A stretch of DNA of 64,000 nucleotides from an uncultured Bacteroidia bacterium. Lineage in GTDB: Bacteria > Bacteroidota > Bacteroidia > Bacteroidales > UBA932. Shown here in pieces: positions 42,942 to 58,638 of the stretch (within the stretch, counting starts at the first letter, position 1; each line of letters starts with the position of its first letter). A program made the position numbers and the translations under genes. The DNA lies in NCBI GenBank assembly GCA_902789395.1, contig CADANY010000002.1, positions 163,390-227,389 on the forward strand, given 5' to 3'. A model generated the notes under the pieces. The model was given only the letters and a program-made list of their open reading frames with translations. It was not told where the DNA came from and did not search any database.

Positions 42942-44183
42942 CTACAGATACTGCCCGATAAACAAGATACACCCGGTGCTCTTTTCACTAATCAGATAGA
43001 TAAAGGGGCGGTCAATGATAAATTCAGGAGTCGACGGAATAGCAGAAGCGGAACCAATGGAGTAGGCAACGCTAATAGCCGCAGCTTCACTTCCTTTCTT
43101 GTCCATAGAAAACGCCGTCTTATGGATCATTGTGTCGAAAGTAATCTTCTTGTCGGAAATTCCGCTAAGGTCAGAGTCTTCGCCAAACAGTTTGCAGATG
43201 CCTAATCTATTAAGGTTCTTCGCGATTATATTATTCGAGTATGATACATTGATTTTCGGAAGTGATATTTTGTACGGGGAATAACTATGCGTCCGATCCC
43301 TCAGACCATTAAGCACAGTAGAGGACAAGTGATTGCAGGCGGTGTCAAAGATATCGTCCTTCGGAACCAGAATTTCTAGTTGAAAGGCACTGTTCCCATA
43401 AGGGATGGCAGCATACTCCCATCCATTCCGTGAGGAATAGGCAATGGGGATTTTGCCTCCTTCCAGCATCATGACGTTTTCTTGCTTGCCGTTGAGATGA
43501 TAAAATGGCTTCTTCTCCTCTTTCTCAAAAGGCGTTGACCATTTTCCGGAAAAGTAAATCGCATTGGCTGCCAGCATTTTGGAATAAGCAGGTGGAGTGT
43601 CCAGTATCTGGTTGATCTTTCCGTGAGTTTGTTTTTTGCACCAATTGTTCAGTTTATCAAGGAACGCCATTGACGATAGGTCGTCATAATCAGGTTGGAC
43701 GGAGAACCGATTCTTGACAATGTCTATAAACGGAGATTTGATGGACTTATTCAACGTTTTGTCGAACCAGAGCCCATTTGCCGATTCGAGTGTTACGGAA
43801 TTGTCCGCTGTGGTGAGCGCGTTGTATAAAGATGTGTAAAATACCCCAGTTTCTTCAGGAGAAAACTCTTTCAGTCCCAGGGCTGAGACAATCTCTTCCC
43901 TTGTTTCCCCTTCCGCTCCAGCAGAGAGGAGAGAGAGAACAGTCGCAATACTAAAGGGCGAGATAAAGGAAGAGGAACCTTCTTCAAGTGTTCGAACTTC
44001 TCGGAATAAGTTGAGACCAAAGTCGTTAGATGCAGAAAGCATTGTTGCTTCGGCTTTGGTAAGAACAATCGGTTCCATGGGTTTTACAGCCCCGTTCGTA
44101 TCCTTTCCCTGTTTCTCACAACCGAATATAAGGAATAATAGCAAGAGATATGTTTGAATATGAAGAAATGAAAACGTTCTCAT
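42942..44183 (-). CDS. Serpin-family protease inhibitor lipoprotein
   Basis: 413 residues. SPII signal with lipobox IFGC then a short polar linker, so surface or periplasmic anchoring is likely. Full serpin fold: FISPFSIATVLSLLSAGAEG, ANAIYFSGKWSTPFE, and the reactive-centre hinge KKGSEAAAISVAYS, small residues at P15-P9 as in inhibitory serpins. The P1 residue falls in a SIGSAS region, probably Ser or Ala, suggesting elastase- or subtilisin-like targets; exact P1 is uncertain because the loop is longer than in alpha-1-antitrypsin. C-terminal DRPFIYLISEKSTGCILFIG. The gene is clearly richer in A and T than its neighbours, suggesting transfer. Confidence 0.93.
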   Translation of the reverse strand: MRTFSFLHIQTYLLLLFLIFGCEKQGKDTNGAVKPMEPIVLTKAEATMLSASNDFGLNLFREVRTLEEGSSSFISPFSIATVLSLLSAGAEGETREEIVSALGLKEFSPEETGVFYTSLYNALTTADNSVTLESANGLWFDKTLNKSIKSPFIDIVKNRFSVQPDYDDLSSMAFLDKLNNWCKKQTHGKINQILDTPPAYSKMLAANAIYFSGKWSTPFEKEEKKPFYHLNGKQENVMMLEGGKIPIAYSSRNGWEYAAIPYGNSAFQLEILVPKDDIFDTACNHLSSTVLNGLRDRTHSYSPYKISLPKINVSYSNNIIAKNLNRLGICKLFGEDSDLSGISDKKITFDTMIHKTAFSMDKKGSEAAAISVAYSIGSASAIPSTPEFIIDRPFIYLISEKSTGCILFIGQYL

Positions 44184-44217: not shown

Positions 44218-45204
44218 TTACAACAGCCTCATCCGCCAGGTGACGCCGATGTCGAAGTTGTTGACGGTGTCGTGGTTGTCGCGGAAATAGACGGCGTGGA
44301 GACGAACCGTCTCGTCTCCGAGCGGGAAGTACTCGACGCCGGCACCGTAGTACAGGTAATTGTTCCCGGCGGGCAGGACCAGATCGTAGGAAAGGCCGTT
44401 CTCATCAACATTCATCGCGTCATTCCATTCATATCCGACCTTGGTGCAAAGGTTCCATTTCCCAACGGAATAGATGGCTTTCCCAATGACGGTCCCGTCA
44501 GAGAAGAAGCGCGGATGTCCCGCCGCCGTACGGTTGATGTAGTCGACGTCGACCACGAGGGGTCCGAAGAAGAACTTGTTCCCGAGGGCGATATAATTCA
44601 TTTTACGGTGATACTCGTCTTCGACCAGGTTGACGCTCCAGAGCGTTTTCCATCTCGGGAAGAAAGATCCGTTCCAGTAGAGGTTGTAGGAATACGTGTT
44701 CTGGGTCGGAGGAGAGATGGGCGAAGGAATGAACTGTAAGGAGATGGTCTGGCCCGGGACGGGCGTATAATGGGCCGTCGCACCGAAGGCGTAGACCTGT
44801 GACATTCCGTTGCAGAAAGCGCTGTAATAGTAGACCTCGATCGGCGGGGAGTCGAACTCGTATCCGCCCACAAGGATCCCCTGCTTGCCGAAAGTAAATC
44901 CCCAATGGTCATTGGGCTGCCAGCGGATCCATAGGAAATCGGTCGCCTTGAACGGATTCTTGGCTTCGATATCCTTGTTGAGGCGCTGCCGGACCCGGTA
45001 GGAGATGGTTTCGGACAGGGTCCCCTTGATATGGAGGTTCAGGTAGTCGCCCTGGAAATGGGTGCCGTATACCCCGTCCCGGGTCTCCTGGTGGAAGGTG
45101 GCCCGGGCGTCGAGGGATATTTCATCGAGTGACTGTGCAGCAAGCGGCGCAGCCGTTAAGAAAACGGAGAGAAGGGCTGGTAAAAGATACCCTGTCTTAT
45201 TCAT
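44218..45204 (-). CDS. Outer-membrane porin-like beta-barrel protein
   Basis: 328 residues with a signal peptide (LTAAPLAAQS). Alternating hydrophobic/polar strands with many aromatic residues (YNLYWNGSFFPRWKTLWSVN, YLYYGAGVEYFPLG) and a strand-like C-terminus (NNFDIGVTWRMRLL) fit a 12- to 16-strand outer-membrane barrel resembling OprP/OprO-type porins. Its start overlaps the end of the GlpT-type gene by eight bases. It may let organophosphate or phosphate cross the outer membrane for that carrier; this is inference. Confidence 0.72.
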   Translation of the reverse strand: MNKTGYLLPALLSVFLTAAPLAAQSLDEISLDARATFHQETRDGVYGTHFQGDYLNLHIKGTLSETISYRVRQRLNKDIEAKNPFKATDFLWIRWQPNDHWGFTFGKQGILVGGYEFDSPPIEVYYYSAFCNGMSQVYAFGATAHYTPVPGQTISLQFIPSPISPPTQNTYSYNLYWNGSFFPRWKTLWSVNLVEDEYHRKMNYIALGNKFFFGPLVVDVDYINRTAAGHPRFFSDGTVIGKAIYSVGKWNLCTKVGYEWNDAMNVDENGLSYDLVLPAGNNYLYYGAGVEYFPLGDETVRLHAVYFRDNHDTVNNFDIGVTWRMRLL

Positions 45205-46567
45205 TTTCGACTGTTTCTGTATTTCTAGCTTTGTCCTTGAGGTTCCAGAGCGTTACGACAAGCAGGAAGCCGATAACGGAGACGGCGGACATCAGGATGA
45301 AGATCGGGTGCCAGCCGAAATGATCGGCGAACTTACCGAGCGGGTAACCCGTAATCAGGGTCGAGAGATAACTCATGAATCCGATGATGCCGACGGCCGA
45401 GGAGGCCGCTTTCTTGGAGACCTCGTTAGATGCGACTACCCCGAGAAGTGCTTGCGGCCCATAGAGGAAGAAGCCAGCAAGAGCGAGCACGATCAGGAAA
45501 AGCACCGGCTGGTGCCAGTCCTGGATATAGTGCAGGGCAACGAGGCAAAGAGCAACGAGGACCATCTCGATGGCGCAGACCCGCTGCGAGCGGCTCTTGA
45601 AGAACTTGTCGGAGACATAGCCGGCGAAGATCATGCCGAGGCAGCCCGCCACTTCGAAAATACCGACGGTCCATCCGGAGAGCTGCGGGCTGAGCCCCAT
45701 GTCCTGAAGCATGGACGGACCCCAGTCCAGTACCGCGAAGCGGACAACGTAAACGAAGAGGTCGGTCAGGGCGAGAATCCAGATGACAGGATTCAGGAAG
45801 ACCCTCTTGACGAGGAACTTGCGGAAAGCCTTCTGGTCTTTTCCCTTGCTTTCGTCCAATTCTCCCTCGACCTTCGGGAGCTCCTGGAGACCGACGGATT
45901 TCGGCGTGTCGCGAAGCGTTGCGATAATGAAGAATATGCCGACAAGTCCGAGGCAGGCCGGAACCCAGAAACAGAGCTGCCAGCTGGTAAGGTAACCGCA
46001 GATGACGGAGGCAACAAACGCACCGACGCTGTGGGAGGTATTCCAGATGCTCATCTTGGTCGCCAGCTCATGCGGGGGTACCCAGTTGACCATCAAATGG
46101 TTGCACGGAGCAAATCCGCATCCCTGGAAGATCTGGTTGACGATGTAGAGCACCGACAGGATCAGGATGAATCCGCCGATGAAGTCCGGTCCCTCCGTCG
46201 TGCCGGTAATCAGGGTTGTCAGCTTGTCCGTCCATCCGAAGAGGAAGTTGACGGCCACGCAGACGCCCAGTCCGAGGACCAGATGCCACCGGGCATTCGT
46301 CCGGTCGCCGATAATTCCATTGATGAGTTTTGAAATACCGTAGATGATACCTCCTGCGGACAGGATGGCGCCAAGCTGTGCCTTCGTGATCTCCGGATAG
46401 GCATCCTGGATCATCGGGATGGCAAAGGAAAAGTTCTTCCGGACGAAGTAGAATACGGCATAGCCGATCATCGAGCAGATGATGACCTGCCACTGCCAGG
46501 ACTTGAAGAAATCAACCTTCCCGTCCTTGCCTTTGAGCTTAAAGATGGGTTTAACGGTCGGTTCCAT
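45197..46567 (-). CDS. glpT: GlpT/UhpT-family organophosphate:phosphate antiporter
   Basis: 456 residues, 12 transmembrane segments, major facilitator superfamily. Early GYAVFYFVRKNFSFAIP with the conserved Tyr-x-x-Arg-Lys-Asn pattern and GIIYGISKLINGIIGDR after TM2 identify the organophosphate:Pi antiporter family that includes GlpT and UhpT. It would import glycerol phosphate or a hexose phosphate in exchange for phosphate. It is translationally coupled (TAATG) to a glycerol-1-phosphate dehydrogenase gene, so glycerol phosphate is the favoured substrate; stereochemical preference is unknown. Confidence 0.88.
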   Translation of the reverse strand: MEPTVKPIFKLKGKDGKVDFFKSWQWQVIICSMIGYAVFYFVRKNFSFAIPMIQDAYPEITKAQLGAILSAGGIIYGISKLINGIIGDRTNARWHLVLGLGVCVAVNFLFGWTDKLTTLITGTTEGPDFIGGFILILSVLYIVNQIFQGCGFAPCNHLMVNWVPPHELATKMSIWNTSHSVGAFVASVICGYLTSWQLCFWVPACLGLVGIFFIIATLRDTPKSVGLQELPKVEGELDESKGKDQKAFRKFLVKRVFLNPVIWILALTDLFVYVVRFAVLDWGPSMLQDMGLSPQLSGWTVGIFEVAGCLGMIFAGYVSDKFFKSRSQRVCAIEMVLVALCLVALHYIQDWHQPVLFLIVLALAGFFLYGPQALLGVVASNEVSKKAASSAVGIIGFMSYLSTLITGYPLGKFADHFGWHPIFILMSAVSVIGFLLVVTLWNLKDKARNTETVENE

Positions 46568-48012
46568 TATTTAAACGGCTTTTCTTCGTTGATATCCCAG
46601 GCATGTCCCGGGAGGAAAATCGCATTGACGAGTTCATCATAATAGCGGCCGCGCTTGGCGAGGTCGAGGGCGTTGAAACGCCAGCGCATCAGCTGGACCT
46701 TCTCGAACATGTCGTGGAGCTGGTGACGGGTCACGCCGATATCAGACGGGTCGGTCGGAGCGCCGACGATGGCAAAGCTCTTCTGCATTTTCTCGAAGGA
46801 CCAAACCTGGGCCTGGAGTTTTTTCTTGAATTCCGGCCAGACGGTCTTGACCTTTGTCAGCTGCTCGCGGACGGTGTCGGCGTCGTTGTATTTCTTTGTG
46901 ATTTCGGTGTAGCCGAGCTTGGGAGCCGGGAAATTCCGGAAGATCTCGATGGCGCGCATCTGCTCCTGGTCGATCGTCGGCCAGGCCGCAACGCAGGCGT
47001 CGACATCCAGCTTGGTCAGGTCGAACTTGAACATCTCGTCGAAAATAGCGCACATGGTCAGGGTGCCGACCGCAACCTGGATCCCATGGGACTGGAGTTT
47101 TCCGTGGAAACGGTGGTGGGTCATGTCAAGGATATGGCTGAAGAGGTGCTCGCAGCAGGATGCCGGACGGCTGGACCGGGCGGCCTGCATGGCGAAACCG
47201 CTCATGGTCAGGCCTTCGAAGATATCAGCGATGGCCTGGTGGTCTCCGGCGGCGATGCCTTCCGGGTCGGAAAGGTAGGTATGGAGCCGGGGATAGAGAA
47301 CATCCCAGGCGGCCGGGATGATCGGTTCCGTGCCCATCAGGTCGGCAATCATCCATTCCGCACCGGCCGGAACCTTGGCGGCGAGATCGGCATAACCGGA
47401 CGCAGCCATCCACTTCGGCGCATTGGCGATGACATTGATGTCTGCGATGATTGCGGTCGGAGCGGCGCACTCGAAGGTCTGCTTGGCGTTCTGGTAGGTA
47501 ATCGACGCGCCGAAGGAAGAGAATCCGTCGACGGAAGCGGCGGTGGCGACGCAGATATACCCCTGTCCATGGTGCTGGGAAGTCAGTTTGCAGAGGTCGT
47601 TGATGACGCCGGCACCGACGGAGACGGCGACAAAGAAGTCGTCGGAGGGCTTCCTGAATGCGGTTTTGGCATCTGCCTCGACATAGGCGGGATCGTTCTC
47701 AAGGCGCTTGGCCTCGGCGAAATCGCCGTCGAGGAGCTTATCGACCATCTCGATGTAGCGCCACTCGGCATGGAACTCCTCTTTTTCGATGATGTATTTC
47801 TCGGTAGGAATGCCTGCGGCTGTCATCCGGGAGAAGACCTCCTCTCCGCAGGCCGGCCAGGTATTGATGTCGGCGACGACGACGGCCTTGCGGCCCGGGA
47901 ACAGCTCTTTGAAAACTTCCGGAACCCGTCCGAGGATTCCTTCACCCATTTCGAACACTTTTGTGTCGGTTGCCACCTTCAGGGCGGCGGCGATTCTCTC
48001 TTTTGAATCCAT
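46567..48012 (-). CDS. sn-glycerol-1-phosphate dehydrogenase (AraM-like)
   Basis: 481 residues, iron-alcohol-dehydrogenase/dehydroquinate-synthase fold. VSVGAGVINDLCKLTSQHHG is the nucleotide-binding GGGxxxD region, ATAASVDGFSSFGAS is diagnostic for the AraM/EgsA group, and SSRPASCCEHLFSHILD with HRFHGKLQSHGIQVAVGTL carries metal-ligand His residues. The family interconverts dihydroxyacetone phosphate and sn-glycerol-1-phosphate, the archaeal lipid backbone; Bacillus AraM makes it for heptaprenylglycerol phosphate. Here the next gene is a GlpT-type importer, so the enzyme may instead oxidise imported glycerol-1-phosphate. No prenyltransferase gene is in the window. Confidence 0.87.
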   Translation of the reverse strand: MDSKERIAAALKVATDTKVFEMGEGILGRVPEVFKELFPGRKAVVVADINTWPACGEEVFSRMTAAGIPTEKYIIEKEEFHAEWRYIEMVDKLLDGDFAEAKRLENDPAYVEADAKTAFRKPSDDFFVAVSVGAGVINDLCKLTSQHHGQGYICVATAASVDGFSSFGASITYQNAKQTFECAAPTAIIADINVIANAPKWMAASGYADLAAKVPAGAEWMIADLMGTEPIIPAAWDVLYPRLHTYLSDPEGIAAGDHQAIADIFEGLTMSGFAMQAARSSRPASCCEHLFSHILDMTHHRFHGKLQSHGIQVAVGTLTMCAIFDEMFKFDLTKLDVDACVAAWPTIDQEQMRAIEIFRNFPAPKLGYTEITKKYNDADTVREQLTKVKTVWPEFKKKLQAQVWSFEKMQKSFAIVGAPTDPSDIGVTRHQLHDMFEKVQLMRWRFNALDLAKRGRYYDELVNAIFLPGHAWDINEEKPFK

Positions 48013-48037: not shown

Positions 48038-48061
48038 TCCGAATCGGATTGTACAAAGGTA
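48038..48061 (-). promoter_or_regulatory. Candidate promoter and operator of the glycerol-1-phosphate dehydrogenase operon
   Basis: TACCTTTG on the minus strand (48054-48061) fits TAnnTTTG. Just downstream lies the 11-base palindrome TCCGA-A-TCGGA (48038-48048), 26 bases before the ATG, where a repressor could bind. Confidence 0.5.
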
Positions 48062-48115: not shown

Positions 48116-48136
48116 TGACAATAATTGTTAAATTTG
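48116..48136 (+). promoter_or_regulatory. Candidate promoter and operator of the mannitol PTS operon
   Basis: TAAATTTG (48129-48136) fits TAnnTTTG. The near-palindrome TGACAATAATTGTTA (48116-48130, core ACAAT-A-ATTGT) touches its first two bases, a position suited to a repressor. No clear -33 TTTG is present. Confidence 0.5.
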
Positions 48137-48166: not shown

Positions 48167-49315
48167 ATGAAAGCAATACAATTCGGAGCAGGCAATATCG
48201 GCCGCGGTTTCATCGGGGCCGTCCTCTCGCAGGCCGGGTTCGAAGTCGTCTTCGCGGACGTCGTCGCCGACCTTCTCGGGCAGATCAATACGCGGAAAGA
48301 GTATACCGTCCATGTGATGGATACCGTCAGCCGTGACATCACAATCAAAGACATCAAGGCCGTCAATTCCGGGGGCGACGACGCCGTCGCAGAAATCGTG
48401 GATGCCGACCTGATTACGACGGCTGTCGGGCTCCGTATCCTGAAATTCGTCGCCCCGGCGATTGCCAAGGGTCTCGCCGCGCGCAAAGCCGCCGGGATAG
48501 AAAAACCGCTCAATATCATTGCCTGTGAGAACGGCCTCAGGGCGACCTCCCAGCTCAAGGCCCTGACCCTCGATCTCCTTTCCCAGGATGTCCGGGAGTG
48601 GGCCGAGTCCCACGTCGGTTGGCCGGATGCCGCCGTCGACCGGATCGTCCCGCCGGTCCGCTGCGAAATTCCGCTCGACGTTGCGGTGGAAGAGTATTAC
48701 GAATGGGATGTAGAGCGTTCGTCCTTCGTCGGGGAGATTCCTGCGATCGAAGGCATGACCCCGGTCGATAACCTTGAAGCCTATGTCGAACGGAAACTCT
48801 TTACCCTCAATACAGGCCATGCGACGGCCGCCTATGTCGGTAAGATGAAGGGTCTCCAGACAATCGGAGACAGCATTGCCGACCCGAAGGTCTGTACCCT
48901 TGTCCGCGCCGTCATGCGCCAGAGCGGTGAAGGCCTGATCAAGAAATTCGGTTTCAACCATGAGGTCCATTACGCCTATATCGAGCGGATTATCAAGCGT
49001 TTCTCCAATCCGTACCTGCGCGACGACGTCGACCGGGTCGGACGTGAACCGCTCCGGAAGCTGGCTCCTAACGACCGGCTTATCCTTCCGATGATGACGG
49101 CCAAGAGCTATGGACTTTCCTATGACAAAATCCTTCTTGCCATCGGTGCCGCCCTGCATTTCAATAACGGGATGGACCCGCAGAGCATCGAAATGCTTTC
49201 CTCGATAGAGGTCCTCGGCCTGGAAGGAACGATCGTCAAATATACGGGAATCCCGGCCGGTGATCCGCTCGTAGGGGAAATCGTCGACGCGTACCACGAG
49301 GTCGAGAAATTCTAG
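48167..49315 (+). CDS. mtlD: Mannitol-1-phosphate 5-dehydrogenase
   Basis: 382 residues, usual MtlD length. N-terminal NAD-binding KAIQFGAGNIGRGFIGAVL, the polyol-dehydrogenase signature region DRIVPPVRCEIPLDVAVEE and YVERKLFTLNTGHATAAYVG with the conserved Lys..Asn..Gly-His. It oxidises mannitol-1-phosphate made by the PTS to fructose-6-phosphate. First gene of the operon; the mannitol EIICBA gene starts six bases after its stop. Confidence 0.97.
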   Translation: MKAIQFGAGNIGRGFIGAVLSQAGFEVVFADVVADLLGQINTRKEYTVHVMDTVSRDITIKDIKAVNSGGDDAVAEIVDADLITTAVGLRILKFVAPAIAKGLAARKAAGIEKPLNIIACENGLRATSQLKALTLDLLSQDVREWAESHVGWPDAAVDRIVPPVRCEIPLDVAVEEYYEWDVERSSFVGEIPAIEGMTPVDNLEAYVERKLFTLNTGHATAAYVGKMKGLQTIGDSIADPKVCTLVRAVMRQSGEGLIKKFGFNHEVHYAYIERIIKRFSNPYLRDDVDRVGREPLRKLAPNDRLILPMMTAKSYGLSYDKILLAIGAALHFNNGMDPQSIEMLSSIEVLGLEGTIVKYTGIPAGDPLVGEIVDAYHEVEKF

Positions 49316-49321
49316 TTCGTG

Positions 49322-51205
49322 ATGGTACAGGAGAAAATCCAGCGTTTCGGGCGGAGCCTCAGCGCGATGGTCATGCCGAATATCGGCGCGTTCATCGCGT
49401 GGGGCTTGATCACGGCCCTGTTCATCCAGGGGGGCTGGTGGCCGAACGAGCATCTGGCGAAGATGGTTTCGCCGATGCTCAAATATCTGCTGCCGACCCT
49501 GATCGCCTTTACGGCCGGCAAGAATGTCGGCGGATATCGGGGCGGAGTCGCCGGAGCCGTTGCCGCGATGGGCGTGATTATCGGAACCGATACGCCCATG
49601 TTCCTCGGGGCCATGCTGATGGGCCCCCTGGCCGGCTGGTGCGTCAAGCGTTTCGACAAACTGGTCGAGGGTAAGATCGGGGCCGGATTCGAAATGCTCG
49701 TGGACAATTTCTCCCTCGGGATCATCGCGATGCTCCTCGCCATTGCGGGATACCTGCTGATCGGGCATGTGGTCGAATGGCTGACGAACCTGCTCAGCAG
49801 CGGGGTCAACTGGATGCTTGCCCACAAGATGAACCCGCTCCTGGCCGTACTGGTCGATCCGGCGAAGGTCCTTTTCCTGAACAACGCCGTCAACCACGGA
49901 ATCATGACCCCGCTCGGCATCCAGCAGGCCGCCGAGATGGGACAGTCCATGCTTTTCCTCGTCGATCCGAATCCGGGACCGGGTCTGGGAATCCTTCTCG
50001 CCTGCTGGGTCTTCGGAAAGGGAATGACGAAGCAATCCGCTCCCGGAGCCGCGGTGATCCAGCTGTTTGGCGGGATCCATGAAATCTATTTCCCGTATGT
50101 CCTGGCGCGTCCGATCTTGCTCTTTGCCGTGATGATCGGCAATATCTGCGCCCTTTCTTTCTATACGCTTACGAACTTCGGACTCGTTGCGCCCGCTTCG
50201 CCGGGCAGCCTGATTTCGATTATCCTGATGTCCCCCCGGGGACGGACCCTGATCGGGATCCTGGGCGTGCTGATTGGAACGGCCGTGTCGCTCCTGCTGG
50301 CTATACCGATGGTCAAGGCCCGGCCTGATTTCCAGGGGGAGAATGAAGACGCTCCCAAGACGCCCGGAGCGGGACAGCCAGTCCCGTCCGGCCTGTCCGG
50401 AACCGTCCGGAAGATTGTTTTCGCCTGTGATGCGGGTATGGGATCCAGCGCCCTTGGAGCAACCCGGTTCAAGGCGAAACTGCTGAAAAACCACCTCGAC
50501 GGGATTGCCTGCACCAACAGCGCCGTCGACGCCATTCCCGCCGATGCGGACCTTGTCGTCTGTCAGGGAACCCTGGCCGGACGGGTAGAGGGACACGAAG
50601 TCGTGACGATTACGAATTTCATCTCCGACCCCGCCCTTGATGCCCTTATCGAACGCCTCAAGGCAGCTCCCGCCCCGGCCCTTCCGGAGGAAGGGGAGGG
50701 GCCGCTCCGCGTTGCTTCGCAACCCTGTACGGGCAAATGCTCCGCAACTCCCTCCCCCTCCTCCGGAGAGGATTCAGGAGAGGAGACGGCGCTGCTGAGC
50801 CGCAGCCGGATCCGGACCGGGCTGTCTCCGGAAACGAAGGAAGAGGCGATTCTCCGGGCGGGCCGGCTGCTTGAAGAGGCCGGCTGTGCAGCGCCGGGCT
50901 ATGCCGAGGCGATGCTGGACCGTGAAAGACTCATGACGACCTATATGGGGATGGGCCTGGCGATTCCGCATGGAACGTCCGAGGCTAAATCCAAGGTGCT
51001 CCGTTCCGGCATATCCGTCCTCCAATATCCGGAAGGCGTCGATTTCGGAGATGAAAAGGCATTCCTCCTTATCGGCATCGCCGGAGTCGGGGACGAACAC
51101 CTGGACATCCTCGCCAAGGTTTCCTCCGCCCTCGAGGATGAGGCCTTGCTGGAACGCCTGTCCCACCAGGCGGATGTTGAAGAAATCTATAATGCACTAA
51201 AATAA
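49322..51205 (+). CDS. mtlA: PTS mannitol transporter, fused EIICBA
   Basis: 627 residues from ATG 49322 (a GTG lies just before at 49319). Membrane EIIC domain about 1-335 with the mannitol-family motif GGIHEIYFPYVLARP. EIIB about 362-450 with KIVFACDAGMGSSALG (phospho-Cys about 369). EIIA about 498-627 with GMGLAIPHGTSEAK (phospho-His about 550). It takes up mannitol and phosphorylates it. The linker between B and A (about 450-495) is odd: rich in Glu, Pro, Ser and Cys and encoded by a palindromic repeat. PTS permeases are rare in Bacteroidota. Confidence 0.96.
   Translation: MVQEKIQRFGRSLSAMVMPNIGAFIAWGLITALFIQGGWWPNEHLAKMVSPMLKYLLPTLIAFTAGKNVGGYRGGVAGAVAAMGVIIGTDTPMFLGAMLMGPLAGWCVKRFDKLVEGKIGAGFEMLVDNFSLGIIAMLLAIAGYLLIGHVVEWLTNLLSSGVNWMLAHKMNPLLAVLVDPAKVLFLNNAVNHGIMTPLGIQQAAEMGQSMLFLVDPNPGPGLGILLACWVFGKGMTKQSAPGAAVIQLFGGIHEIYFPYVLARPILLFAVMIGNICALSFYTLTNFGLVAPASPGSLISIILMSPRGRTLIGILGVLIGTAVSLLLAIPMVKARPDFQGENEDAPKTPGAGQPVPSGLSGTVRKIVFACDAGMGSSALGATRFKAKLLKNHLDGIACTNSAVDAIPADADLVVCQGTLAGRVEGHEVVTITNFISDPALDALIERLKAAPAPALPEEGEGPLRVASQPCTGKCSATPSPSSGEDSGEETALLSRSRIRTGLSPETKEEAILRAGRLLEEAGCAAPGYAEAMLDRERLMTTYMGMGLAIPHGTSEAKSKVLRSGISVLQYPEGVDFGDEKAFLLIGIAGVGDEHLDILAKVSSALEDEALLERLSHQADVEEIYNALK
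50683..50767. repeat. Structured palindromic repeat inside mtlA, encoding the EIIB-EIIA linker
   Basis: Arm TCCGGAGGAAGGGGAGGG (50683-50700) and arm CCCTCCCCCTCCTCCGGA (50750-50767) pair at 17 of 18 positions. The interior holds two further small hairpins, GTTGC-TTC-GCAAC and CCC-TGTAC-GGG. This looks like an intergenic palindromic element that inserted in frame between two domains. Confidence 0.75.
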
Positions 51206-51472
51206 ATGAAGACCCAGAAAGTTACGGTTCAGGCCCCGAATGGCCTCCATGCCCGTCCGGTCGGAGAAATTGTCCGTATCGTCAAATCCTTCGCCGGGAC
51301 GACGGTCTCGCTTTCTACGGGAGCGAAAACAGTCAGCGCCGCCAGTATGCTCGGCATCCTTTCGCTCGGACTGAAAGCGGGAACGGAAGTTGAGGTCTCC
51401 GCGGAAGGGCCGCAGGAAGCGGCTGCCGTTGCTGCGCTCGTCCGGATTATCGAGTCCGCTGACATAGAATAA
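51206..51472 (+). CDS. ptsH: Phosphocarrier protein HPr
   Basis: 88 residues. Phospho-accepting His15 in APNGLHARPVGEIV; regulatory-type Ser about 47 in the VSAASMLGILSLGLKAG segment, where Gram-positive HPr is phosphorylated by HPr kinase. HPr passes phosphate from Enzyme I to EIIA. The start is directly after the mtlA stop and the ptsI gene follows after 11 bases, so the whole phosphorelay is in one operon. No HPr kinase gene lies in this window. Confidence 0.96.
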   Translation: MKTQKVTVQAPNGLHARPVGEIVRIVKSFAGTTVSLSTGAKTVSAASMLGILSLGLKAGTEVEVSAEGPQEAAAVAALVRIIESADIE

Positions 51473-51483
51473 CCTGCAGTTTA

Positions 51484-53031
51484 ATGGTGACGAGAAATGG
51501 AATAGCCTCAGTTGAGGGACTGGCGGCGGGGACGGCTTTCTTGCTGCGGAAAAACAAAGGTACCGGACAAGCTGTCGTCTCCCTGGACGAGGCCTTCGAG
51601 GCAGAGCGGGAGCGGCTTGAAGCCCTTTCCCAGGACGGGGAAAGCGAGGCGGCAGGGATCTTTGCCGCCCATCTGGAGATCCTTGAAGACCCGATGCTCC
51701 GCGAGTCGATCGAGGCGCATCTTGGCGACGGCCTTTCCCTGATAGAGGCCGTGGAGGCGGCTTCGAAGGAACTTGCTGCCATGTTTGAAGAGATTGAGGA
51801 TGAGTATCTTCGCGCCCGGGCTGATGATGTCCGGGATATCTGCCGCAGTCTGTCGGAACGGCTCTCCGGTTCCGCCGGGGATTCCTGGCAAGGATTGCCG
51901 GAGGATGCCGTCATCGTCGCGGAAGAACTCTTTCCTTCCGATACGACGGAGATGGACTTTGGGAAAATCCGGGCCTTCGTCATGCAAAGAGGGAGCGTGA
52001 CGAGTCATGTTTCGATCATTGCCCGCAGCAAAGGGATTCCGGCGCTTCTCGGAGTTGAAATCGACGGAATCGAAACGGGAGACCGGCTCCTTGTCGACGG
52101 CGATGCCCGGATCCTGACGATCCGGCCGGAGGAAGCCACCGAAGAAGCTTTCCGCGAGAAAATGAATCACAGGGATGCGGGGGATACCGCAGAAGTTCTT
52201 CTCAAACCGGACGGAACGCCGGTTACCGTTTTCGGGAACGCCGGTTCCCTCGGAGACATCGATGCGGCCATCGCAGCCGGGGCGGACGGGATCGGTCTGT
52301 TCCGGACGGAGTTCGTCTTTATGGACACCGACCACCTCCCGACGGAAGAAGAGCAGTTTGCCATCTATCGGCAGGCGGTTCTCCGGTGTGGTGGAAAGCC
52401 TCTGATAATCAGAACTATGGATATAGGAGGAGATAAGATTCTTCCGTATTGGAACCTCCCCCGGGAGGAGAATCCCTTCCTCGGTATGCGGGGCGTGCGC
52501 CTCTGCCTGACGCACCCGGACGCTTTCCGGATCCAGGTCCGGTCCATCCTCCGCGCCGGAGCCCTTGGTCCGGTTCTGATGATGATCCCGATGGTCGCCA
52601 AGGTTGAGGAATTGGATCAGGTCCATGCGATGGTCCTCTCCTGCTCGGAAGAACTCTCCCGGGAGGGAATCCCGTTCAGGGAAGACCTGCCTGTCGGCAT
52701 CATGGTCGAAACGCCGGCGGCGGTCCTGATGGCTCCGGAATTAGCCCGGAAGGCAGCCTTTTTCAGTATCGGAACCAATGACCTGACGCAATATACGATG
52801 GCTGCGGACCGGGGCAATCCCGGCGTGGCGCATCTCTATAATCCGATGGATCCGGCGGTGGAGAGGGCGCTGGAAATGACGGTCGCCGCTGCCCGCGAGG
52901 CGGGAATTCCCGTCGGGGTCTGCGGCGAAATGGCTTCGACTTTTGAGGGACGGCAACGCCTGGTATCCCTCGGGGTGGACTCGGTCAGTCTCTCTTCTCC
53001 GAAGCAAATCAAGAAATTGAAACAGAAATAG
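51484..53031 (+). CDS. ptsI: PTS Enzyme I (phosphoenolpyruvate-protein phosphotransferase)
   Basis: 515 residues, about 50 shorter than most Enzyme I proteins; the shortening is in the N-terminal half and the C-terminus. Phospho-His175 lies in GSVTSHVSIIARSKGIPALL. The PEP-binding barrel shows GIGLFRTEFVFMD, MRGVRLCLTHPDAF, FSIGTNDLTQYTMAADR and the catalytic Cys region GIPVGVCGEMAS. It autophosphorylates from PEP and feeds HPr. Motifs needed for catalysis are present, so it should be active. Confidence 0.96.
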   Translation: MVTRNGIASVEGLAAGTAFLLRKNKGTGQAVVSLDEAFEAERERLEALSQDGESEAAGIFAAHLEILEDPMLRESIEAHLGDGLSLIEAVEAASKELAAMFEEIEDEYLRARADDVRDICRSLSERLSGSAGDSWQGLPEDAVIVAEELFPSDTTEMDFGKIRAFVMQRGSVTSHVSIIARSKGIPALLGVEIDGIETGDRLLVDGDARILTIRPEEATEEAFREKMNHRDAGDTAEVLLKPDGTPVTVFGNAGSLGDIDAAIAAGADGIGLFRTEFVFMDTDHLPTEEEQFAIYRQAVLRCGGKPLIIRTMDIGGDKILPYWNLPREENPFLGMRGVRLCLTHPDAFRIQVRSILRAGALGPVLMMIPMVAKVEELDQVHAMVLSCSEELSREGIPFREDLPVGIMVETPAAVLMAPELARKAAFFSIGTNDLTQYTMAADRGNPGVAHLYNPMDPAVERALEMTVAAAREAGIPVGVCGEMASTFEGRQRLVSLGVDSVSLSSPKQIKKLKQK

Positions 53032-53033
53032 TT

Positions 53034-54668
53034 ATGCAGAAATCATTTGTTATCGGCGTCGATTACGGAACGGATTCCGGACGGGCGGTCTTGCTCGATG
53101 CGCTGACCGGAGAGCAGATCGCCGCCAAGACGGCTGCTTACCCCCGCTGGGCCGAAGGACGTTACTGCAATCCTTCGGAAGACCGGTTCCGTCAGCATCC
53201 GAAAGACTACCTGGAAGTTCTTGAGACGATTCTCAAAGGCGTTATCGCCGCCTGTCCCGATCCCTCCGGGATTGTTGCGATCGGCATCGATACGACAGCC
53301 AGCACCCCCTGCCTGACAGACAGCCGGCTGGTTCCGCTCGCCCTGAAGCCGGGATTTGAAGACAACCCTGACGCCATGTTCGTCCTCTGGAAGGACCATA
53401 CCGGAATGGCGGAGAGCCAGGAGATCAATGCCCTTTGTGACGGGAAAGGTTATCCTTATACGGCCCATTGCGGTCATGTCTATTCTGCCGAGAATTTCTG
53501 GTCGAAAATGCTCCATCTCGTCCGTACGGCCCCTGAGGTGGCCGAGGCGGCCGATTCCGCCATCGAGTGCTGCGACTTTCTCGCCGCGACCCTGACCGGA
53601 TGCCATGACATTGAGGCCCTCCGTCCCGGCCACTGCTGCATCGGAGCCAAGTGGATGTGGGCTGAAGAGTGGGGCGGATATCCGCCGGCCTCCTTCTTCG
53701 GCGAACTCGATCCGAGGCTGAACCGGCTTCGCCTGCCGCAGCAGAATTTCGGGTGCGATAAAGCGGCCGGGACGCTCTGTCCCGAATGGGCGGCAAAACT
53801 GGGACTCAGCGAATCCGTCATTGTCGGCGTAGGCAATGTGGACAGCTATTCCGGCGCCGTCGGCGGCGGTGTCCGTTACAGGACGCTGGTCATGAATCTC
53901 GGCACGTCGGCCTGTTTCATGGCGGTTATGCCGAAGGAGCGTATGGGGGATAAGATTATCGACGGGGTTTTCGCCCAGGTCGACGGGTCGATCCTTCCGG
54001 GCCAGATCGGCATCGAGTCGGGGCTGACGGCTTTCGGAGATATCTATGCCTGGGTCCGCAACCTCCTGAGCTGGCCGCTCCGCCAGGGCGCGGCGGCTGA
54101 TCCTGCCTTTGCTGAAAAGGCGGAAGCGATTGAAAACAAGCTGATTGCTGATCTGACGACAGCCGCAGCAACCCTCCCGGTCCGGGAGGAGGCACCCCTG
54201 GCAACGGACTATCTCAACGGACGGCGCTCTCCCTTCGGCGACAGCTCCCTGACCGCGGCCCTGACCGGTCTCAAGATCGGAACGGACGCCCCGGAATTCT
54301 TCCGGGCCTTTGTCGAAGCGTCCGCTTTTGCCGTCAGGGCCGTCGTGGACCATATGGAAGCCGGCGGCGTAGAAATTGAGCGCTGCGTCGCTGTCGGCGG
54401 CGTCGCACAGAAGTCCCCCTTTGTGATGCAGATGCTTTCCGACGTCCTTGGAAAGCAGATAGAAGTTTCCTCCTCTAAAGATTCCTGCGCCCTCGGATCT
54501 GCGATCCATGCCGCCGTCGCCGCCGGGATCTATCCGAGCGTGGAAGCGGCTGAAGAAGTGCTCTGCCCGCCCGCGTCCCGGAAATATGAACCGAACTCAT
54601 CCCCGGTCCTCGAGGCCCGCTTCCGCCGGTACCTCGCCCTGACCGGACTGAAAGATAAACTGAAATGA
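53034..54668 (+). CDS. araB: Ribulokinase (AraB-like FGGY kinase)
   Basis: 544 residues. FGGY kinase fold with VIGVDYGTDSGRAVLLDALT at the N-terminus, the AraB-specific AMFVLWKDHTGMAE (WKDHTA motif), substrate region GAKWMWAEEWGG, and ATP-site motifs LVMNLGTSACFMAV and RCVAVGGVAQKSPFVMQML. It phosphorylates L-ribulose and, in known enzymes, also D-ribulose and ribitol. The operon holds mannitol genes but no arabinose isomerase or epimerase, so the source of its substrate is unclear; a pentitol or pentulose brought in by the next gene is possible. Confidence 0.93.
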   Translation: MQKSFVIGVDYGTDSGRAVLLDALTGEQIAAKTAAYPRWAEGRYCNPSEDRFRQHPKDYLEVLETILKGVIAACPDPSGIVAIGIDTTASTPCLTDSRLVPLALKPGFEDNPDAMFVLWKDHTGMAESQEINALCDGKGYPYTAHCGHVYSAENFWSKMLHLVRTAPEVAEAADSAIECCDFLAATLTGCHDIEALRPGHCCIGAKWMWAEEWGGYPPASFFGELDPRLNRLRLPQQNFGCDKAAGTLCPEWAAKLGLSESVIVGVGNVDSYSGAVGGGVRYRTLVMNLGTSACFMAVMPKERMGDKIIDGVFAQVDGSILPGQIGIESGLTAFGDIYAWVRNLLSWPLRQGAAADPAFAEKAEAIENKLIADLTTAAATLPVREEAPLATDYLNGRRSPFGDSSLTAALTGLKIGTDAPEFFRAFVEASAFAVRAVVDHMEAGGVEIERCVAVGGVAQKSPFVMQMLSDVLGKQIEVSSSKDSCALGSAIHAAVAAGIYPSVEAAEEVLCPPASRKYEPNSSPVLEARFRRYLALTGLKDKLK

Positions 54669-55966
54669 CCATGACTAAAACCGTTTCAAATCCAGGCACG
54701 AGAAAATGGGTGATCGTTGCCCTGATGTTCCTTGCCATTATCTGCAATTATCTGGACCGGCAACTCCTGTCGATCCTTAAACCGGAGATTCTGGAGCATT
54801 TCCAGATCGGCGATTTCGAATATGCTTGGATCGTCAATGTTTTCCTTCTCTGCTACGCGATCATGTACCCGATATCGGGGATTCTCGTCGACCGTTTCGG
54901 TCCGAAGAGTGTCATGCTCGGGGGAATAACGATCTGGTCCCTTGCCTGTATCGGGGCCGGATGGGCTCCGAATGTCTGGGTCTTCGCGGCTTGCCGGGGC
55001 ATCCTCGGTCTGGCCGAACCGACGATTTTCGCCGGACAGATCGTTGCCGTGACCCTCTGGTTTGAGAAGAAGCAGCGCGCGACGGCGAACAGCCTCTGTA
55101 CGATCGGCGGATCGCTTGGCGCGGTTGTCGCTCCGATCGTCATTGCCTGGCTGATGGGCCTTCTGGGCTACTGGCAGCACGTTTTCGTCATCTCCGGCGT
55201 GGTCGGACTGGTCATCGCCCTCTTCTGGCTCTTTATCTATAAGACACCGCCTCAGGAAGTCCTCGACATGACGGTCAATGCCGACCTGCAGACCCCGACC
55301 GGCGAGCAGAAATCTTTTACTTTCAAGCAGCTCTTCAAGACCCGGACCCTTTGGGGCGGCATTCTGATCCGTCTCGTCAGCGATCCGGTCTGGTACTTCT
55401 GCTGCTTCTGGCTCCCGGGTTTCCTGAGGAGCATGGGTGCCCACCAGGGACTGACCAATGAGCAGACCCTCAACATGATCCAATGGATCGGGGGGATCCC
55501 GTTCCTCGTCGGAGCGATCGGCGGTATCCTTACTTCCGCCTGGTCCGACGGGATGATCCGCCGTGGCATGCCTGCGCTGAAGGCGAGGAAGAAGATGCTG
55601 ATATCGGTTGTCGTGATCGCCCCGCTCTGCATGCTGGTTCCTTTTATTAATGCGGCAGAGATGGCCTTCGGCCTCAAGATCGGACTTATTATCGCGATTT
55701 TCAGCCTTGTCGCAGTCCTCTGTCTCAGCTGGCTCTATACGATTCCCGTCGTCTTCGCGGAGACCTTCCCCGTTAAGAACATTGCTTCTGTGATGGGGCT
55801 CTCCTGCGGGGCCGGGGCTCTCGGAAGCATGGTCTTCAACCAGTTTGTCGGGTCCATCCCGGAGAGTGGCTGGAAAATCCTCTTTATCATCATGGGCACG
55901 CTTCATCTCTTCGCCGCCCTGATTCTTTGGAAAATGGTACGTAAAGAAAACCCTGAAAACGCATGA
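54665..55966 (+). CDS. MFS transporter of the anion:cation symporter (ExuT/GudP-like) type
   Basis: 433 residues, start overlapping the araB stop (ATGA; the third codon ATG 54671 is an alternative). Twelve transmembrane segments with the family motif CNYLDRQLLSILKPEILEHF near TM1 and GILVDRFGPKSVMLGGI after TM2. Members carry sugar acids, tartrate or phthalate, and some carry neutral polyols. Coupling to ribulokinase suggests a pentose-derived substrate; not proven. Confidence 0.88.
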   Translation: MTMTKTVSNPGTRKWVIVALMFLAIICNYLDRQLLSILKPEILEHFQIGDFEYAWIVNVFLLCYAIMYPISGILVDRFGPKSVMLGGITIWSLACIGAGWAPNVWVFAACRGILGLAEPTIFAGQIVAVTLWFEKKQRATANSLCTIGGSLGAVVAPIVIAWLMGLLGYWQHVFVISGVVGLVIALFWLFIYKTPPQEVLDMTVNADLQTPTGEQKSFTFKQLFKTRTLWGGILIRLVSDPVWYFCCFWLPGFLRSMGAHQGLTNEQTLNMIQWIGGIPFLVGAIGGILTSAWSDGMIRRGMPALKARKKMLISVVVIAPLCMLVPFINAAEMAFGLKIGLIIAIFSLVAVLCLSWLYTIPVVFAETFPVKNIASVMGLSCGAGALGSMVFNQFVGSIPESGWKILFIIMGTLHLFAALILWKMVRKENPENA

Positions 55967-56841
55967 AACGATTCTTTCTCGCAGCGCTCCTGCTGACCGC
56001 TGTCCTTCCTGTCTTTGCCGCGAAGAAAACAACCCATACCGTCATGACGGCCAATATCCGGGTTACCGGACTCGAAGCGGATGACCAGCCCGGGCTCCGC
56101 TGGGACGACCGGAAAGCAATCTGCCGGGACGTCATCCTTTCCCGCAAACCGGATATTATCTGTATGCAGGAAGTCATCTATGATTCCTATGAATATTTCA
56201 AGAAAGAGCTCAAGGGCTATACCGGATTCGGGTTCGAAGGCCCCGAGATGGACCCGTATACGGAAGGGTACCACTTTATTGCGAAGAATGTAATCTTCTA
56301 TAAGACATCGCGTTATGAGATGCTCGGAGCCGGGGTGTACTGGATGAGTGAGGATCCGCTTGTGGGCGGAAGCCTTTCCTGGGAATCCGCGCGGGCCCGT
56401 CATACGAACTGGCTGCGCCTCCGCGACAAGGTCACCGGCGAAGTGTTCCGGATCCTCAATACGCACCTGGACCATATTTCCGAGGACGCCCGCCAGGCCC
56501 AGGCCAAACTGATTATCCATGAGGCCTCGCAGTATGCGGAGGACTTCCCGCAGATCCTCTGCGGCGATTTCAACTCCGGCATCAAGAGCGTTGCCATCCA
56601 CAGCATCAAGGCTGCCGGATGGAAAGAGATGTGGGAAGGGATCAACGGCGAAGTCGAATATGGTTTCACAGCCCATGGATTCAAGGCCGATACGAAGAAA
56701 AAGCCCGGCCGGAGGATTGACTTCATCTTCGCGCATGGACCGGTTACCCCCCTCTCCGCAGAGATCGTCACCGACCACCCCAAAGGCATCTATCCTTCCG
56801 ATCACTACTTCCTCGTCTCCGAAGTCCGGATCGGGGAATAG
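55963..56841 (+). CDS. Secreted EEP-family phosphodiesterase/nuclease
   Basis: 292 residues, signal peptide ending PVFAAKK. EEP motifs: TVMTANIRVTGLEADDQPG near 27, PDIICMQEVIYDS (metal Glu), RILNTHLDHISEDARQ, QILCGDFNSGIKSV near 200, RRIDFIFAHG near 248 and YPSDHYFLVSEV at the end. Start overlaps the MFS stop by four bases, so it is the last gene of the mannitol-ribulokinase operon. Its role there is unclear; it might release a phosphorylated polyol from a polymer or lipid. Confidence 0.9.
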   Translation: MKRFFLAALLLTAVLPVFAAKKTTHTVMTANIRVTGLEADDQPGLRWDDRKAICRDVILSRKPDIICMQEVIYDSYEYFKKELKGYTGFGFEGPEMDPYTEGYHFIAKNVIFYKTSRYEMLGAGVYWMSEDPLVGGSLSWESARARHTNWLRLRDKVTGEVFRILNTHLDHISEDARQAQAKLIIHEASQYAEDFPQILCGDFNSGIKSVAIHSIKAAGWKEMWEGINGEVEYGFTAHGFKADTKKKPGRRIDFIFAHGPVTPLSAEIVTDHPKGIYPSDHYFLVSEVRIGE

Positions 56842-56853
56842 AACCTGCCCGGA

Positions 56854-57306
56854 TTAACTTTCTGCGGGGCCCAATATCTGTCCGACCAGTTCCGAAGGGG
56901 TCATGAAGCGGACAGAAGAATTATCATAGGTGTAGCGGTTGATGAATCGTCTATCATTCGTTACAATCACATGGCAGAAGGAATCTCTTGCCCGGATATA
57001 TTGAATGTCGTCCTCGAAATCTGATCCAGGGTGAAGGCAAACTTCCTTCAAGTCGAAGTATCCCAGCGAATCGATATTGACATATCGGGATATGGAAAGG
57101 ATTCGGCTGGCGAAATCCTCTGTTTTTGTCTCCCCCTTTCTCAATAAAACATATGAGGCATCGACAATAGACTGGATTGTGATGACACCTTCCATTTGCC
57201 CTGATCTGATAGCATCAAAAATGATGTTTGACTCGTGCGTTGATGGACGGTCTTTGTGGAGAACGTCGATTAACACATTTGTATCAATGAATATTTTCAA
57301 TTTCAT
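56854..57306 (-). CDS. PIN-domain ribonuclease toxin (VapC-like)
   Basis: 150 residues from ATG 57306. PIN acidic residues: IFIDTNVLIDVL (first Asp), Glu in the middle helix (TKTEDFASRI) and DFEDDIQYIRAR, with Asp in VTNDRRFI. Such toxins cut tRNA or rRNA when unbound. The gene overlaps the 3' end of the upstream ribbon-helix-helix gene by 23 bases, as in coupled toxin-antitoxin pairs. An upstream extension to 57342 is possible but lacks PIN sequence. Confidence 0.85.
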   Translation of the reverse strand: MKLKIFIDTNVLIDVLHKDRPSTHESNIIFDAIRSGQMEGVITIQSIVDASYVLLRKGETKTEDFASRILSISRYVNIDSLGYFDLKEVCLHPGSDFEDDIQYIRARDSFCHVIVTNDRRFINRYTYDNSSVRFMTPSELVGQILGPAES

Positions 57307-57565
57307 ATCCGAGAATATGGTATAAACGTGGATCTGATTCAATTTCCTCGCGCGTAGGAGAAGATATGTTGTAGTTCAGGCTCAGGATTTCGTCTGAGAC
57401 CTTGAAATCCTTCGGCAGTTTTGGGAAGACAGGGGTAGTATCCCGGTCCAGCAGATTCTCAATATAGGCATTGAGGGACATATTGTTGAATTTGGCCAGC
57501 CGTTTGGCCCGGGCCATGATGTCCGGGCGGATTCGGATAACAGTTGTTGTTCTTTCTCTCTCCAT
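57284..57565 (-). CDS. Ribbon-helix-helix antitoxin of the PIN toxin
   Basis: 93 residues from ATG 57565. N-terminal RHH DNA-binding part RERTTTVIRIRPDIMARAKR followed by LAKFNNMSLNAYIENLL; the C-terminal tail (SPTREEIESDPRLYHILGY) would wrap the toxin. It normally neutralises the PIN protein and represses the pair. The region is more AT-rich than the surrounding chromosome. Confidence 0.82.
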   Translation of the reverse strand: MERERTTTVIRIRPDIMARAKRLAKFNNMSLNAYIENLLDRDTTPVFPKLPKDFKVSDEILSLNYNISSPTREEIESDPRLYHILGYEIENIH

Positions 57566-57740
57566 AAAATGCTTTTTTGCAAAGATAATAAAAATGATAT
57601 CATCTGCAATGGGTTGATATCTCATATGGCTTCGCGGAATGAGCGGCGTAGGGGAGAAACCTCCGCATAATCAGCCCGATAAATATTTTAAATTATTTAA
57701 TTTTTGTGGTCATATGTTGGATATTTAGTATATTTCTGTG

Positions 57741-57925
57741 TTTGACACTTTGATTTTGTCAAGCCAGAGACACTTCAAGGCCACAGCCCGCTGCGTGGGC
57801 GATTTGAGGTTTTGATTGTTTTTCAGGGATTGTAGTTATATAGCTACATCTCGTTTGACACTTAACAAGGTTTAAGAAGGAGCAATTTAAGGCTTACAGC
57901 ATGCTGTAATGGCGTTTTGTAGTGT
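57741..57925. repeat. Two-copy structured direct repeat in a gene-free stretch
   Basis: The stretch 57566-57981 holds no convincing gene. Two units start with TTTGACACTT at 57741 and 57854 and, 35-36 bases later, share AAGGC..ACAGC-NN-GCTG..GGCG..TTTG. The second unit contains the perfect 16-base palindrome TTACAGCATGCTGTAA (57894-57909). The first has GCCC..GGGC stems and TTGACA..TGTCAA. The pairing is kept while the bases change, which suggests a selected hairpin. They may be ends of the neighbouring IS1634-type remnant. Confidence 0.6.
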
Positions 57926-57981
57926 CCTGATTTTTTCTGACTTTGTAGTACATAAGCCGGAAGGCGCCTGTCCATCCGGCT

Positions 57982-58638
57982 CTACTCGGCATCATCGTTC
58001 TTCTCCCTTTTCTTGGTCTGTGCAATGATACTCCTCATCTTCTGCTTGGTGACAATCTGGGTGTCCGTCCTGAACCCAGCACTGCCTTGCAGGTTGTTCG
58101 TCAGGTCTGTCCTGGTGTATGTCGGGATATAGCCTTCTCCTGCCACGCTCAAGAAGTCCATTGAGCGGAGTGTGTCCACTATCTCCTCGGTTGTGAAGTG
58201 CTTTCCGCCACGGTTCACCTTCTTTTCCAGGTACTTGTATATCAACAGAGCCACGAAGCATGTCATGAAGTGTGCCTTGATGCGGTCATCCCTCCTCACA
58301 TATACAGGGCGCGCCTCAAAGTCAGTCTTGAAGATGTGGAACCCGTTCTCGATGATCCAGCGGCCGCCGTTCAGTTTGATGATGGCCGGAGCCGGATCAT
58401 GCATATCCGTGCACAGGGCGTAGAAGCCGTCAAAGGGGGCCTTCTGGTCTATCATCTCCTGATTGAGCGAGTAGCTCGCCGTCTGGGCCAGTTCCCCGTC
58501 CGGGGTGACATGCTCCGCCTTGATGAAGCGTTTGGCGTCGTTGGAGCTCTTCTTCTTGGACGTGGCGCCCTGCCTCTTTGCAAGCCGCGCTGCAGCACGT
58601 GTCACTTGACTCTCCCTGCAATATCGGGACAAGGCCAA
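57982..58638 (-). pseudogene. IS1634-family transposase remnant (C-terminal part)
   Basis: The open frame gives 218 residues, but only the C-terminal third of a transposase. The region NGGRWIIENGFHIFKTDFEA contains the last catalytic Glu (W-x-IE-x-x-F), followed by the conserved RPVYVRRDDRIKAHFMTCF. The catalytic Asp residues and N-terminus are missing. Homology seems to end around 58605-58615, beyond which the sequence belongs, on the other strand, to an IS1182-type remnant; the apparent start codon is therefore not a real one. Confidence 0.75.

Follow-up and report, generated by a model that had tools for sequence, protein, structure and literature searches.

Why should a genome of the Bacteroidales carry a mannitol phosphotransferase system (PTS) complete with its own phosphocarriers, and how many permeases do those carriers serve? 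The question is raised by a 64,000-nucleotide stretch, hereafter the window, of an uncultured Bacteroidia bacterium (Bacteroidales, UBA932; GenBank assembly GCA_902789395.1, contig CADANY010000002.1, positions 163,390 to 227,389), whose genome is 2.66 Mb and 98.6% complete. Lying head to tail in the window are mtlD, mtlA, ptsH and ptsI, the genes for mannitol-1-phosphate 5-dehydrogenase, a fused mannitol EIICBA permease, the phosphocarrier HPr and Enzyme I (EI). We consider it highly probable that the run is a complete mannitol PTS delivering fructose 6-phosphate, with EI and HPr likely serving that permease alone. The kind of system is known; what is new is the lineage setting, the trimmed EI, and a reversal of constraint between the relay proteins and the permease. 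A complete and constrained mannitol PTS in the Bacteroidales alters the assumptions about mannitol use that are drawn from gene content, and the faster evolution of its relay makes it possible to test, directly and by computation, why hub proteins usually stay conserved.

Gene content and predicted activity

An earlier note, made from the letters of this DNA, had read mtlD, a fused EIICBA, HPr and EI as a complete set in one tight operon. This is borne out, as all four products score above curated NCBIfam cut-offs (Table 1), their open reading frames (ORFs) are intact, and the gaps between them are 6, 0, and 11 bases; an in-frame GTG at 49319 is an alternative start for mtlA. The four genes do occupy 48167 to 53031 as that note had it, but the run does not end there. 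A kinase gene follows ptsI after 2 bases, and two 4-base overlaps (kinase with major facilitator superfamily [MFS] gene, MFS gene with PF03372 gene) carry it on, so that three further genes reach 56841. We infer that the seven genes form a single transcript.

The phosphorylation residues named for EI (His175), HPr (His15), EIIB (Cys), and EIIA (His) are all present at the claimed positions. Sites, including those of the EI active and phosphoenolpyruvate (PEP) sites, were compared in E. coli numbering. The residue, identity, and dN/dS comparisons presented here exclude proteins covering <85% of the window's, together with locus L147, which was set aside because its EI groups with that of Butyrivibrio. 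Ten EI sites show no variation across the 44 rows of the family alignment, with His175 present in the window EI; HPr His15 is kept in all 47 rows; and the EIIC His and Glu of the GIHE motif, the EIIB Cys, and the EIIA His of MtlA are invariant in 38 of 38. In the window MtlA the last two are Cys370 and His551 when numbered from the GTG, or 369 and 550 from the ATG. EI also matches its N-terminal, mobile, and PEP-binding domain models (PF05524, PF00391, and PF02896). Its predicted structure has a pLDDT of 87.5, and the PDB matches at ranks 2 to 15 are EI structures, with rank 1 taken by an integrative model titled PT1-ODO2, PT1 being a name for EI. When the window is compared with the same locus in a relative (L120, genome G540), dN/dS is 0.02 to 0.16 for ten genes, which indicates purifying selection. 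On the basis of the invariant sites, the confident EI fold, and this selection we take the system as working, and the run is accordingly predicted from sequence and model to encode an active mannitol PTS.

In such a system, EI His175 would take the phosphoryl group from PEP and pass it to HPr His15, which would phosphorylate His551 of EIIA and then Cys370 of EIIB within the fused permease. EIIC would carry mannitol through the inner membrane and release it as mannitol 1-phosphate, and MtlD would oxidize this to fructose 6-phosphate, which would enter glycolysis. As regards Firmicutes-type HPr-Ser catabolite repression, HPr Ser46 is kept in 45 of 47 family rows. A family search of the genome for HPr kinase/phosphorylase gave no match, but the same search recovered only 3 of 14 controls, including Bacteroides ihuae and missing B. 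subtilis, which has hprK, and the negative is therefore weak.

Constraint on Enzyme I and HPr relative to the permease

Genome-wide searches for HPr, EI, and EIIA_2 each returned a single match, the Glc, Man, Lac, and Gut classes of EII not being searched. In a 98.6% complete genome this agrees with the description of the set as self-sufficient in the earlier note; the simplest account is therefore a relay serving one permease, and EI and HPr are likely private to it. The note had proposed to look for linkage of ptsI, ptsH, and mtlA elsewhere; of 51 loci, 41 have mtlA in one stretch with EI, and eight of the other ten are short or end near EI. A fused EIICBA together with MtlD is also found in E. 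coli (NC_000913), where MtlA is 48% identical and has the same phosphorylation residues. There, however, ptsH-ptsI-crr lies at another place and serves many permeases, and mtlR follows mtlD, whereas in the window ptsH and ptsI follow mtlA, and family scans of the window proteins matched no gene of the run to an mtlR model.

A second difference from E. coli lies in the length of EI. The earlier note was right that EI is shorter than usual, although the deficit relative to E. coli is 60 residues (515 versus 575) and not about 50. More than half of it is the C-terminal tail, the window EI ending just past E. coli residue 535; of the remainder, the N-terminal part accounts for roughly 11 and 5 residues, the region ahead of the PEP-binding domain for 6, and other places for a few. 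The tail is missing in all 14 family rows inspected, the window included, and present in E. coli, in three of three other outside EIs, and in both Alistipes EIs, where it is 34 residues long.

Elsewhere, EI and HPr are slow-evolving hubs that feed many permeases. Among 37 loci, including the window and a genome of the sister genus (G002), identity is instead lower for EI than for MtlA in 666 of 666 pairs and lower for HPr than for MtlA in 662, with means of 50% for EI, 55% for HPr, and 74% for MtlA. This identity comparison also leaves out L013, L015, L136, L144, L154, L155, L159, L164, L165, and L166, which are short or do not hold a whole EI or mtlA. For substitution rates we used the 24 pairs among these loci whose mtlA dS falls between 0.03 and 1. 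Wherever the ratio is defined (23 pairs), EI has a higher dN than mtlA, by a median factor of 3.1; the dN of HPr is above that of mtlA in 22 of the 24. Median dN/dS in these closer pairs is 0.154 for EI versus 0.060 for mtlA, with EI at 0.11 to 0.23 across the pairs measured. EI is thus less constrained than MtlA here, unlike in E. coli, where the control pair with K. pneumoniae gives dN/dS of 0.048 for EI, 0.055 for mtlA, 0.013 for HPr, and 0.048 for mtlD, and the pair with A. caviae gives 0.132 for EI and 0.169 for mtlA.

We propose that HPr and EI, feeding one client instead of many, experience relaxed constraint and could therefore afford the loss of the EI C-terminal tail. The weaker constraint on EI and HPr than on the permease fits such a change from a shared hub to a relay reserved for one client. 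We put the full proposal, in which EI and HPr have been drawn into the operon of one permease, serve only that permease, have shed the EI tail, and evolve faster than the permease, at about an even chance. If it is true, PTS hub proteins would be constrained chiefly by how many clients they have and not by catalysis, and a genus with dozens of diverged EI-HPr pairs would constitute a natural experiment on the drift of EI-HPr recognition.

Several observations weigh against this reading. The one-client claim depends on the three families searched, with the four EII classes named above outside them, and two relatives (L155 and L157) carry EI and HPr with no mtlA within the stretch, so that EI may have another client in some relatives. 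Lower conservation of EI than of MtlA is not confined to the genus, being seen in 44 of 55 pairs among 11 outside genomes (three pairs among Lacrimispora, Lachnospiraceae STD2, and S26M are exceptions, with EI not below MtlA). The 24 dN/dS pairs are drawn from few subclades and are not independent. Finally, in the pair formed by the window and L120, the dS of EI is 1.61 against 0.68 to 0.99 for the other nine genes, from which it may follow that allele replacement adds to the divergence of EI.

Distribution and origin

The expectation in the earlier note that a PTS permease is rare in this lineage agrees with the samples. Of 393 genomes sampled from the order, the window's own alone gave an MtlA match; HPr was found in 9 of 299 of the family, spread over 2 of 25 genera. 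The order was thinly sampled, as a protein search found permeases of Alistipes and Mangrovibacterium and the EI of Alistipes communis that it had not met. EI matches occur in 49 of 400 sampled genomes of the genus and 290 of 395 of the phylum. Within the class, the phylum search matched the window's genome and, weakly (E 1e-20 to 3e-28), 11 more; the others belong to other classes and, among the matches listed, are 32 to 41% identical to the window EI. A search for plasmids as carriers gave no match of at least 60% identity among 147 records. A survey of PTS evolution describes the PTS as absent from Bacteroidetes (PMC2405797), and a study of fish-gut genomes assigns the dehydrogenase route to Bacteroidia and the mannitol PTS only to other classes (PMC11333855). 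A search of one literature library found no report of this system.

Phylogeny places the permeases of the genus, G002, Alistipes, Mangrovibacterium, and some unnamed proteins in one MtlA clade (support 100/94), whose sister clade (99/90) in this unrooted tree contains unnamed proteins together with three named loci of Clostridia; further out come E. coli, Spirochaetes, and other Clostridia. The tree was built from 19 of 38 genus rows, duplicate and lesser copies having been omitted from the genus set, and from 31 cluster representatives for 120 proteins, with six outside rows (near-copies or long branches) left out. Two features of the tree count against the account given here: its root was not inferred, and many of its rows are unnamed. 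Among the nearest named outsiders are fused EIICBA permeases of Clostridia (Clostridiales BH.7_2 and Lachnospiraceae SUG1983), which are 49 to 50% identical to that of the window; they differ in that neither L260 nor L261 shows an HPr or EI match next to mtlA, and their EI groups with other Clostridia. Mannitol PTS proteins of Alistipes, known from public records (P0248 and P0249, with the A. communis EI P0209), are also close, sharing the permease clade and having a near EI.

Two EI trees, the first with 31 of 80 named loci and the second with 20 of those and 13 of 29 rows from other classes, bring the genus, G002, and Alistipes together, with the long-branched Lachnospiraceae locus L048 among or beside them and L147 apart. 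A single clade for the Bacteroidia EI set is compatible with the data (p-AU 0.544). Vertical descent shared with the EIs that other classes of the phylum carry, imposed as one clade, was rejected (AU p 0.00067), with the caveat that the other-class EIs themselves do not form one clade. Nor does composition point to a recent foreign arrival, with third-position G+C (GC3) at 0.63 to 0.74 in the four PTS genes against 0.707 +/- 0.039 in 12 other ORFs, and the operon occupies the same chromosomal site, among similar neighbors, in G540. EI names no donor, since the best 80 loci of the genome scan are 36 to 43% identical, mostly Clostridia, and none is titled Bacteroidales.

The view of the earlier note that the set is a transferred module is consequently kept in part. 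The MtlA clade stands beside one that holds Clostridia and the EI stands apart from other classes of the phylum, both of which fit transfer; the Bacteroidia clade, the 49 of 400 genus genomes with EI, the native GC3, and the shared site speak against a recent and isolated one. The descent within a large Bacteroidota clade with common mtl operons that the note had set against its own proposal is found as far as the clade goes, but in the samples the operons are not common. We infer an old entry into the Bacteroidia from a Clostridia-related source, followed by patchy loss and exchange.

A strictly vertical history, in which an early Bacteroidia ancestor had the system, most lineages lost it, and none reached the class by transfer, is a possibility that we rate as rather unlikely. 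It would account for the single clade formed by all named Bacteroidia permeases, for the compatibility of the genus, sister-genus, and Alistipes EIs with one clade, and for the native composition. It would, however, require very many losses to leave one MtlA in 393 sampled order genomes, and in the MtlA tree a genome of the same family (g3) branches apart from the genus while Alistipes lies closer, which suggests transfer between lineages.

One locus shows a separate irregularity. L147 (G559:C45) carries a Butyrivibrio-type EI at the contig start, positions 1 to 1596, with genus-type mtlD and mtlA on the same contig and a G+C of 0.54 to 0.63; this could be either a replacement in place or a chimeric contig.

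Alternative functions and neighboring genes

The prediction of mannitol as substrate must be weighed against another polyol, such as D-arabinitol or glucitol, in whose pathway the ribulokinase-like and MFS genes of the run might then act. The 2-base distance between ptsI and the kinase gene invites this, and the permease clears TIGR00851 by 0.1 bit, which counts against the mannitol assignment. MtlD, however, lies well above its equivalog cut-off, PRK15083 is exceeded by 88 bits, and mtlD is also near mtlA in L132, L141, and L156, where no relative of the kinase was seen, so that we give another substrate only a small chance. It is very improbable that the PTS is broken or purely regulatory, with a short EI that is no longer a sugar phosphotransferase: the missing 60 residues and the fast evolution of EI would suit this, but the frames are intact, the ten EI sites hold in every row, EI dN/dS stays at 0.11 to 0.23, and a complete EIIC-B-A permease and mtlD adjoin EI. 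Contamination by a contig of another organism binned into a Bacteroidales genome has in its favor only that such operons are rare in the order and is scarcely credible given the same site and similar neighbors in G540, GC3 matching that of the neighbors, SusC/SusD-type genes in the same window, and EI matches in 49 of 400 genus genomes.

Table 1. Features of the window discussed in the text (coordinates from the first letter of the window; scores in bits)
Feature	Position	Strand	Evidence and remarks
mtlD, mannitol-1-phosphate 5-dehydrogenase	48167..49315	+	NF002646 467.3 (cut-off 368); PF01232, PF08125
mtlA, fused mannitol EIICBA permease, 627 aa from ATG	49322..51205	+	PRK15083 677.1 (cut-off 589); TIGR00851 468.5 (468.4)
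ptsH, HPr phosphocarrier	51206..51472	+	TIGR01003 73.4 (cut-off 47.9)
ptsI, Enzyme I without usual C-terminal tail, 515 aa	51484..53031	+	TIGR01417 444.8 (cut-off 341.7)
L-ribulokinase-like FGGY kinase	53034..54668	+	NF003154 577.5 (cut-off 428); TIGR01234 474.4, below cut-off 583.25
MFS transporter, 4-base overlap with kinase gene	54665..55966	+	PF07690 176.7
Endonuclease/exonuclease/phosphatase-fold protein	55963..56841	+	PF03372 65.6; signal-peptide-like start read by eye
TAAATTTG, candidate Bacteroidota -7 box of mtl operon	48129..48136	+	TAnnTTTG match; conserved in L120
TACCTTTG, candidate -7 box of divergent set	48054..48061	-	TAnnTTTG match; TATCTTTG at same place in L120
Divergent glycerol-1-phosphate dehydrogenase-like gene	46567..48012	-	PF13685 102; NF002022 146.2, below cut-off 413; 93% identical in L120
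GlpT/UhpT-type organophosphate antiporter	45197..46567	-	TIGR00881 300.2 and TIGR00712 259.0, both below cut-offs
Porin O/P family gene, last of divergent set	44218..45204	-	PF07396 42.9
Palindromic element, in frame in MtlA EIIB-EIIA linker coding region	50683..50767	.	18-nt arms, 94% complementary

The local, native-style TAnnTTTG box proposed before the mtl operon is present and is kept in L120 (Table 1). Taken alone, a box of this kind is weak evidence, because the window contains 26 matches to the motif against 13.9 expected. Scans for sigma-70 promoters and terminators gave nothing useful, with 7 and 3 found against 3.4 and 8.7 expected.

The divergent set (44218 to 48012), with its porin, GlpT-type antiporter, and dehydrogenase-like gene, could form a route for sn-glycerol-1-phosphate from lipoteichoic acid or from archaeal lipids, the latter being a source of this compound. 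The lipoteichoic acid of B. subtilis consists of sn-glycerol-1-phosphate (PMC7086022). Of 51 loci, 27 have a GlpT-type gene within the stretch, and in 17 it directly adjoins HPr-EI (L141-L143, L148, L150-L153, L156-L158, L160-L164, and L166), many of these having mtlD and mtlA nearby. Among 200 genus genomes, 31 have a close relative of GlpT (E up to 1e-180), and 14 of the 31 are EI positive versus 49 of 400 overall, a comparison that ignores kinship. L156, the annotated cluster of this type, has a glycerophosphodiester phosphodiesterase family gene, a BACON protein, and two glucosamine-6-phosphate deaminase-type genes nearby, and phosphodiesterase-like and deaminase genes are also present in L132, which has a different layout. 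Together with the dehydrogenase-like gene of the window, these neighbors suggest, as a lead, a wider theme of polyol-phosphate scavenging.

Within mtlA, the linker stretch that contains the palindrome is about 63 bases longer than in L120, as seen from an alignment gap. The palindrome core has a second copy in the genome (L255, about 1490 to 1560) with different self-complementary arms, close to a gene whose product, judged by eye, resembles an ATP synthase subunit; that copy seems open in another frame. The element looks like a protein-coding palindromic repeat.

Two further differences flank the operon. A serpin-like gene, so labeled by reading, lies at 42942 to 44183 between the porin gene and that of a flavin adenine dinucleotide (FAD) oxidoreductase; as the latter two are directly joined in L120, it was either gained in the window or lost in L120. 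Directly to the right of the operon, 56854 to 58638 holds a PIN-domain gene, a small gene that matches HicB and DUF6364 weakly, and a piece of a transposase, and part of the PIN/small-gene pair also matches near the operon in L120.

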